Assembly: GCA_001485605.1 (NCBI GenBank)
Contig: FAON01000008.1
Coordinates: 124,001-188,000 of the forward strand
Direction: 5' to 3'
DNA from: Candidatus Kryptobacter tengchongensis
Lineage (GTDB): Bacteria; Bacteroidota; Ignavibacteria; Kryptoniales; Kryptoniaceae
DNA length: 64,000 nucleotides
The stretch's first letter is position 1, and each line of letters begins with the position of its first letter. The translations under genes were made by a program, and so were the position numbers. Under the pieces are notes generated by a model that saw only the letters and a program-made list of their open reading frames with translations, had not been told where the DNA came from and made no database searches. This document shows positions 37,453-39,960 of the stretch, piece after piece.

Positions 37453-38562
37453 TCATTGAGCGTCTTGGATATACTTGAATCCAAATTTGATTGAAAGTTC
37501 GGCTTTCATTAACTCTTTTCCAAGATAAGCAGCGTGCGAGAGCTGTGTGATCCATCCATTTTTAATGATCGTCCAATAGATGGCTTTGGCTTCTTCCCCT
37601 TCAATGATTCGTAGAAGTTTATTATCGTAAGAGTAATGTTCAACTATGATGAGTTTTCTTTCCATCTGAGGTATTATTACAAAGTATCCCGCTTTGTCCA
37701 TCTCAACTTTATCGGGTTTTTTAGCTTTTATGATAGTTACAGTGGAAACTTGAATAGATTTTTTCTCTTTTTCAAAATTTTCGCAGCAAGATTTAGTAAC
37801 TTCTTCTGAGACTTCTTTAATTTTCTCAAGAATTTTATTTACATCTTCACAGCCAATCATATCCACAACTTTAACTTGTTTCCGAAAGGTTTCCACTTCT
37901 TGAAGGGTTACATTTTTTAAAATTGGACGCTTACCGGGAGAGTTTATGATTCTCATATTTTCATCAATTCCATTTTCCCACAGGGCGATCAAACTTGCTC
38001 CACTGCGATGACCTTCAGCATCCTTTCCAACCAGAAGAAGGACATGGATTGTTGGATTTGTTATAGTATTTTTGATCACCTTTTCAATGCCTATGTTTTC
38101 TGTCTCGGTTTTTCCGACGATACAGAGTTCCTTCGGTCTAATTTTAGCAAGACTTTCTGCGAGTTCAACGCTTGCAAGAGTTGAAACAGCAACTGGGCAG
38201 TTAGCACCATCGCAAAAAGCGAAATACTCCCCTGGAACGGAAGGCCAGATTTTCTCCTTGGTTTCAAAAACACAACTTCCGCTTTCAAAGCTTGAAGATT
38301 CGGGGAAAATCTGGTTGAAGACATTCATAGCTACAGCTGGATAGCAATACCTGCATCCAAGACATTCATACTTTACCTCACCCATTTGTCCAAGCCACAT
38401 TTCAAGATTTTCAATTAAGTTTCCAAAGTCAGGAACTGATTTAGAGATGGATAGTAAGCTTTCCAATGTTTCCTTCATACATCCACATTTTCTGCACTTT
38501 TCAAGGCTCATCCCCTTTTCAAGCTCGGAGAGAATTTTATCTATTTGAAATTTTTGTGTCAT
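37453..38562 (-). CDS. MtrA-like corrinoid-type protein with Cys-rich N-terminus and DUF4346-like tail
   Basis: A 369-residue soluble protein. Residues about 106-250 resemble subunit A of archaeal tetrahydromethanopterin S-methyltransferase: WPSVPGEYF, PVAVSTLASVELAE, VGKTETENIGIEKVI, LLLVGKDAEGHRSG and VVDMIGCED. H185 in AEGHRSG aligns with the histidine that binds the corrinoid cobalt in methanogen MtrA (H84). The membrane anchor of archaeal MtrA is missing. The N-terminus has two cysteine clusters (C23, C26, C28 and C67, C70, C73), suited to an Fe-S cluster or zinc. The C-terminus (about 285-369, ending HAAYLGKELMKAELSI...YIQD) matches what I recall of DUF4346. Its role, presumably methyl transfer, is unproven. 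Confidence 0.75.
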   Translation of the reverse strand: MTQKFQIDKILSELEKGMSLEKCRKCGCMKETLESLLSISKSVPDFGNLIENLEMWLGQMGEVKYECLGCRYCYPAVAMNVFNQIFPESSSFESGSCVFETKEKIWPSVPGEYFAFCDGANCPVAVSTLASVELAESLAKIRPKELCIVGKTETENIGIEKVIKNTITNPTIHVLLLVGKDAEGHRSGASLIALWENGIDENMRIINSPGKRPILKNVTLQEVETFRKQVKVVDMIGCEDVNKILEKIKEVSEEVTKSCCENFEKEKKSIQVSTVTIIKAKKPDKVEMDKAGYFVIIPQMERKLIIVEHYSYDNKLLRIIEGEEAKAIYWTIIKNGWITQLSHAAYLGKELMKAELSIKFGFKYIQDAQ

Positions 38563-39776: not shown

Positions 39777-39840
39777 ATTTGTTTTTTAGTGTCTTTTCAA
39801 TTAAATTTTAAATGTAATTTGTTCGTTCTTTAATGGTTAT

Positions 39841-39938
<98 letters not shown>

Positions 39939-39960
39939 GACTGAAACTTTCATAGATAAA

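Follow-up and report, generated by a model that had tools for sequence, protein, structure and literature searches.

The closest described counterpart of the protein reported here is MtrA of methanogens, in whose structure cobalt is ligated by His84, Glu54 is hydrogen-bonded to that histidine and Asn55 contacts the corrin; homologues in some bacteria, most of them keeping His84, have also been noted (PMC4915002), so that the existence of bacterial MtrA homologues was previously known. A second corrinoid protein, HgcA, transfers a methyl group to mercury via methylcob(III)alamin, with SAM as donor, and has a TM domain and a ferredoxin-like partner, HgcB (PMC11588087); it sets a precedent for the passing of a methyl group from a corrinoid to a metal. 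In a third, CFeSP, iron-sulfur cysteines serve the corrinoid. Sequence databases hold a further model, NF002128 (PRK00964.1-6), named tetrahydromethanopterin S-methyltransferase subunit A, which matches the protein described below over its whole length. As far as their available text goes, papers that mention COG4063 or PF04208 have methanogens or archaea as their subject, while our literature search found DUF4346 or PF14251 in no paper and the plasmid pA30H1, considered below, named in none.

Here we describe a bacterial member of this family encoded in the window, the whole 64,000-nucleotide stretch of Candidatus Kryptobacter tengchongensis DNA that was analysed, and compare it with relatives from other genomes. 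The gene and its parts are laid out as follows.

37453..38562, minus strand: MtrA-DUF4346 corrinoid protein gene, ATG start, 369 aa (ORF call, PF04208, PF14251, NF002128)
38254..38562, minus strand: N-terminal region with the cysteines, residues 1-103 (no Pfam match; 37/37 family members keep all six cysteines)
38479..38496, minus strand: first cysteine cluster, C23-x2-C26-x-C28 (invariant in 37/37, also in the Planococcus and Paraburkholderia plasmid copies)
38344..38364, minus strand: second cysteine cluster, C67-x2-C70-x2-C73 (invariant in 37/37, also in the plasmid copies)
37801..38253, minus strand: MtrA-type cobalamin domain, residues 104-254 (PF04208; predicted model compared with 5laa)
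38095..38100, minus strand: E155-N156, equivalents of Glu54 and Asn55 (alignment to 8q3v; conserved in 37/37)
38008..38010, minus strand: H185, equivalent of the cobalt ligand His84 (alignment to 8q3v; conserved in 37/37)
37462..37701, minus strand: PterinBD-DUF4346 tail, residues 288-367 (PF14251; TIGR00284)

An earlier note, made from the letters of the window, had proposed an MtrA-like centre with a retained cobalt-binding histidine, two flanking clusters of three cysteines and a DUF4346-like C-terminal domain, and each of these features is confirmed. Residues 104-254 match the Pfam MtrA profile (PF04208) at 127.9 bits (cutoff 25; E 4.2e-37), and residues 288-367 match PF14251 (PterinBD-DUF4346) at 82 bits (cutoff 29.6; E 5.5e-23); the tail also resembles the C-terminus of the DHPS-like NCBIfam model TIGR00284 (E 2e-13). 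Residues 1-103 are without any match in a Pfam scan, and neither PF03599 (the CdhD-type corrinoid domain, the criterion for HgcA) nor PF04060 (the CFeSP Fe-S motif) is among the Pfam matches of the protein. The NCBIfam models leave it outside the named equivalogs: TIGR01111, for methanogen MtrA, scores 119 bits, under its curated cutoff of 249, and NF002128 covers the whole protein at 417 bits without reaching its equivalog cutoff of 568. Every member tested falls below that value, full-length members with the cysteine region scoring about 381-499 bits and the Planococcus copy 284 bits over its C-terminal 270 aa.

In a phmmer alignment to Methanothermobacter MtrA (8q3v), H185 corresponds to His84, E155 to Glu54 and N156 to Asn55. 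These three residues and C23, C26, C28, C67, C70 and C73 are invariant in 37/37 family members and are kept in plasmid copies of only 36-37% identity; the TETENIGI motif is conserved in nearly all members. The structure prediction likewise agrees with the earlier reading: an AlphaFold2 model (mean pLDDT 82, from a 37-sequence alignment) superposes on the MtrA-cobalamin complex 5laa (E about 1e-12; rmsd 1.8 across 151 columns), and MtrA is the only kind of solved structure to match the protein significantly, none matching the DUF4346 part. The predicted structure is without the long hydrophobic C-terminal helix of MtrA type, its tail being the DUF4346 domain. Together, the conserved ligand residues and the modelled fold argue strongly that the window protein binds a corrinoid; the tail may, to judge from the name of its domain, be a pterin binder.

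When 84,980 species genomes were scanned, the family was located at 48 loci across many bacterial and archaeal phyla. In the window's genus the gene occurs in 4/7 sampled genomes, at differing chromosomal places, and it is rare in the phylum sample (2/296). In the tree the window copy is sister to that of Kryptonium thompsonii (support 98/84), and another copy from the window's genus groups with one from Aquificales (92/87, less than full support). This grouping, with the patchy presence at differing loci, fits repeated horizontal transfer. A separate Chloroflexota subfamily (L107-L117) is devoid of the cysteine N-terminus and lies beside ABC transporters or PadR-like regulators.

Neighbours of the gene in these relatives were identified by ORF search, similarity, and Pfam and NCBIfam scans. 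In the sister copy from Kryptonium (L004) the gene closes an operon in which CzcC-CzcB-CzcA are followed by PII-type and OsmC proteins and an uncharacterised membrane protein. Single loci offer a divergent MerR-family metal regulator with CzcA downstream (L005), a heavy-metal P-type ATPase (L006), and an Acr3-type arsenite exporter (L008; 244 bits, slightly under the curated cutoff of 282.8); L010 and L021 have ArsR and a permease weakly resembling the SO_0444/SaoE efflux families, L027 and L029 have ArsR, LspA and ATPases, with DUF302 adjoining L027, and L041/L105 have a weak MerT-like neighbour (24 of 32.9 bits). P-type ATPases adjoining the gene carry, in the few cases seen, ACPS (L006), AAPC (L027) or SCSC (L036, L051) instead of CPC. 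Bacteroidota copies neighbour a CsoR-family repressor and DUF3347. Plasmids also carry the gene: in Planococcus it is annotated DUF4346 (protein WP_082707470) and resides on small plasmids of 12-17 kb, the operon of pA30H1 running ArsR, HMA-domain carrier, metal ATPase, MtrA-DUF4346 and transposase. The Planococcus copy bears additional CGC-rich inserts. Next to the copy on a Paraburkholderia megaplasmid a CadR/PbrR-like regulator is encoded divergently; its 148.5 bits fall short of the cutoff of 151.45. At L034 an ArsM scoring over its curated cutoff is nearby, and a CFeSP-gamma-like Fe-S protein (PF04060; L034:9459-9992) is encoded directly upstream of MtrA-DUF4346. The L034 neighbourhood also includes ArsR, OsmC and a DGC-domain protein. 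In Nitrospirota (L028, L030, L032, L033, L035, L042, L043) the gene has a fixed place immediately before ParA and ParB, and no metal genes were found in these neighbourhoods. A role in a defence system was considered and dropped, PADLOC having returned no match.

For a quantitative comparison we counted markers of metal resistance (ArsR/CadC, CadR/PbrR and CsoR sensors; heavy-metal P-type ATPases, CzcA, Acr3 and MerT-like proteins) within 3 kb, taking control genes from the remainder of the window and from stretches of the genomes that carry the family. A marker accompanies 24/51 family loci and 7/256 of the controls (p about 1e-15 by Fisher's test, a value to be read with the marker seeds having been picked after inspection of the loci, the loci being partly related, and the control genes being clustered and not independent). 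With the loci that supplied search seeds removed, the count is 9/33 (p 7e-6). A metal-sensor regulator lies within 3 kb of the gene at 19 loci, and the cysteine-less Chloroflexota subfamily has a marker at 1/11. The family is thus non-randomly linked to metal sensors and exporters, and gene context shows its link to metal resistance. The sensor types encoded nearby, namely ELCVC-type ArsR, which senses As/Sb or Cd/Pb/Bi, CadR/PbrR-like proteins (Cd/Pb) and the CsoR family, point to thiophilic ions.

CzcA and SPC-motif ATPases occur in some loci, and Bacteroidota have a CsoR/RcnR-family repressor, which would be in keeping with cobalt or cobalamin homeostasis, in which the protein would be a corrinoid store or sensor tied to cobalt efflux (Czc, SPC-type ATPases, RcnR/CsoR-like repressors). 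We regard this as quite improbable: the ELCVC-motif ArsR, CadR/PbrR-like and Acr3 neighbours point instead to metals of the As/Cd/Pb class, and no cobalamin riboswitch was found near the gene in nine loci scanned. Control of the gene by B12 or folate riboswitches was rejected on the same scan, which showed neither kind nearby and only a TPP riboswitch belonging to another operon. Nor did any specific support emerge for the sensor role that the earlier note had offered as one option.

In many relatives the gene is accompanied by a 4-TM protein with a GCCGSPM motif (GCCGSP invariant) and a cysteine-rich tail. It is fused to the N-terminus of MtrA-DUF4346 in six loci (L015, L021, L023, L025, L026, L037) and encoded adjacently in others (L002, L016, L017, L020, L022, L031, L036, L046, L047), in Bacteroidota immediately upstream; among 16 genomes searched it is present only where it adjoins MtrA-DUF4346. 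The missing archaeal membrane anchor that the earlier note had remarked on is true of the window copy but does not extend to relatives with a fused or upstream 4-TM partner. Pfam, NCBIfam and fold searches with the 4-TM part returned nothing. On the Pelobacter plasmid pPRO1 (L054) a metal ATPase is preceded by a distant 4-TM relative. Near the gene in Bacteroidota there is also an exported protein with a GCEDAC motif whose match to CcmE is weak and under cutoff, and which is a candidate periplasmic metal carrier. At L026:9108-9491 and in its relatives this small CcmE-like protein, with GCEDAC conserved, precedes the 4-TM protein.

The window genome contains a mutase-type B12 domain and a cobalamin riboswitch, which answers the earlier call for a check of B12 genes and makes a corrinoid supply plausible. 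The partner methyltransferase genes that the earlier note had found lacking in the window are absent throughout the genome: MtrH (PF02007) has no match, and there is no protein of the CdhD/CFeSP/HgcA kind (PF03599). A full-length MetE (770 aa) is encoded, as it is in close relatives without MtrA-DUF4346, and MetH-sized B12 proteins were not found. This combination speaks against roles in methionine, Mtr or acetyl-CoA pathways; we accordingly rejected, for this genome, a methionine-synthase partner, full MetE being present in the genus whether or not the gene is, and a place in an Mtr complex or Wood-Ljungdahl pathway, for which MtrH and CdhD are wanting. More broadly, the MtrA homology, the occurrence of DUF4346 at the end of the DHPS-like TIGR00284 protein, and the many genomes in which the gene is solitary or linked to ParAB would accord with a methyl carrier in one-carbon metabolism, as in methionine synthesis or a folate/pterin route, beside which metal genes are incidental. 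That reading is improbable in view of the MetE distribution and the lack of MtrH, CFeSP and CdhD, and because patchy presence at differing loci within one genus is unlike a housekeeping gene and metal genes are enriched near the family. Elsewhere in the window, a TPP riboswitch (39840-39946; 75.8 bits) precedes a likely operon for thiamine uptake and salvage, with genes for a TonB-type receptor, thiamin pyrophosphokinase and a transporter of sodium-solute type.

The earlier note had envisaged a stand-alone corrinoid methyl carrier or sensor. What endures of the carrier is a likely corrinoid protein outside methanogenesis; the description was incomplete, the family being spread over many phyla with metal(loid)-resistance neighbourhoods, and the interpretation has moved, with partial support, to a corrinoid protein of metal(loid) resistance. 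The gene context suggests this function lead, which is new here. In its full form, to which we assign a little less than an even chance, MtrA-DUF4346 would be a soluble corrinoid protein for metal(loid) resistance that most likely moves a methyl group to or from a thiol-bound metal(loid). By homology and predicted fold, the MtrA domain would hold the corrinoid base-off/His-on via H185; the N-terminal cysteines may either bind the soft, toxic metal(loid) directly or hold an Fe-S cluster by which the corrinoid is reduced again. The corrinoid would then give a methyl group to the thiol-bound metal(loid), or take one from it, and a pterin that donates or accepts the methyl group might dock at the DUF4346 tail. 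In many lineages a membrane partner, the 4-TM protein with the GCCGSPM motif, might receive the product or ion, or P-type ATPases and CzcA pumps might export it.

Several observations count against the metal(loid) reading. The window copy is solitary, with no metal marker within 3 kb, and its genome has neither the 4-TM partner nor the OsmC gene seen in the Kryptonium operon; roughly half of the loci are without a metal marker, the Nitrospirota copies lying beside ParA/ParB; and passengers accumulate in metal operons. Methyl transfer in particular is weakened in that no neighbour is diagnostic for methyl transfer to metals, that Planococcus is an aerobe, unfavourable to Co(I) chemistry, and that several sensors are of Cd/Pb type. 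To our knowledge, methylated cadmium is not a detoxification product. The same metal gene context would also serve a bound corrinoid acting as a redox or binding device, in which cysteines and corrinoid form a cytosolic metal trap or a reductant feeding exporters, without methyl transfer; the Planococcus CGC-rich inserts resemble metal-binding stretches, and the genome has no methyl-donor enzyme of MtrH or CFeSP kind. We think such a device unlikely, though deserving some weight: it leaves the pterin-type tail without a use, and the E155-H185 network and TETENIGI motif, typical of a methyl-transfer corrinoid protein, are conserved.

Returning to corrinoid-dependent metal(loid) resistance with methyl transfer, its consequences would be considerable. 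A family in bacteria is named after an enzyme of methanogenesis whose partners they do not have, and, if the reading is correct, that name conceals a widespread B12-dependent detoxification route. Next to HgcAB it would be a second corrinoid system that acts on metals, with a possible bearing on the source of methylated or demethylated mercury, arsenic, antimony or lead in organisms that lack hgcA, arsM or merB. With the Planococcus plasmid operon, the question of metal resistance can be tested directly. The wider proposal is of a second corrinoid system, independent of HgcA, for the methylation or demethylation of toxic metal(loid)s, with an MtrA domain at its core; it would have spread horizontally and on plasmids across bacteria and archaea and would be equipped in some lineages with 4-TM and exported OB-fold-like partners of its own. 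We put this proposal forward as speculative and on balance doubtful.

Set against the known systems, the window protein shares with methanogen MtrA (PF04208; cytoplasmic homologues 5laa and 5l8x) the cobalamin domain, the fold and the equivalents of His84, Glu54 and Asn55, but adds the cysteine-rich N-terminus and DUF4346 tail, dispenses with the C-terminal membrane helix, has no MtrH partner in its genome, and has relatives in metal operons. The name of NF002128 implies a methanogenic function, whereas the partners for such a function are absent. CFeSP offers the likeness of Fe-S cysteines and, at L034, an adjoining gamma-like protein, yet MtrA-DUF4346 has a different corrinoid fold and the window protein does not contain PF04060. 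With HgcA/HgcB the family has like parts, namely a corrinoid domain, a cysteine-rich region that is an Fe-S candidate, and a TM domain fused or adjacent in some relatives. The corrinoid domains are nonetheless not homologous, that of the window protein being of MtrA type with a histidine ligand and that of HgcA having Co-thiolate ligation; in MtrA-DUF4346, moreover, the cysteine region is on the same chain, the TM domain is N-terminal, and DUF4346 is an extra domain.
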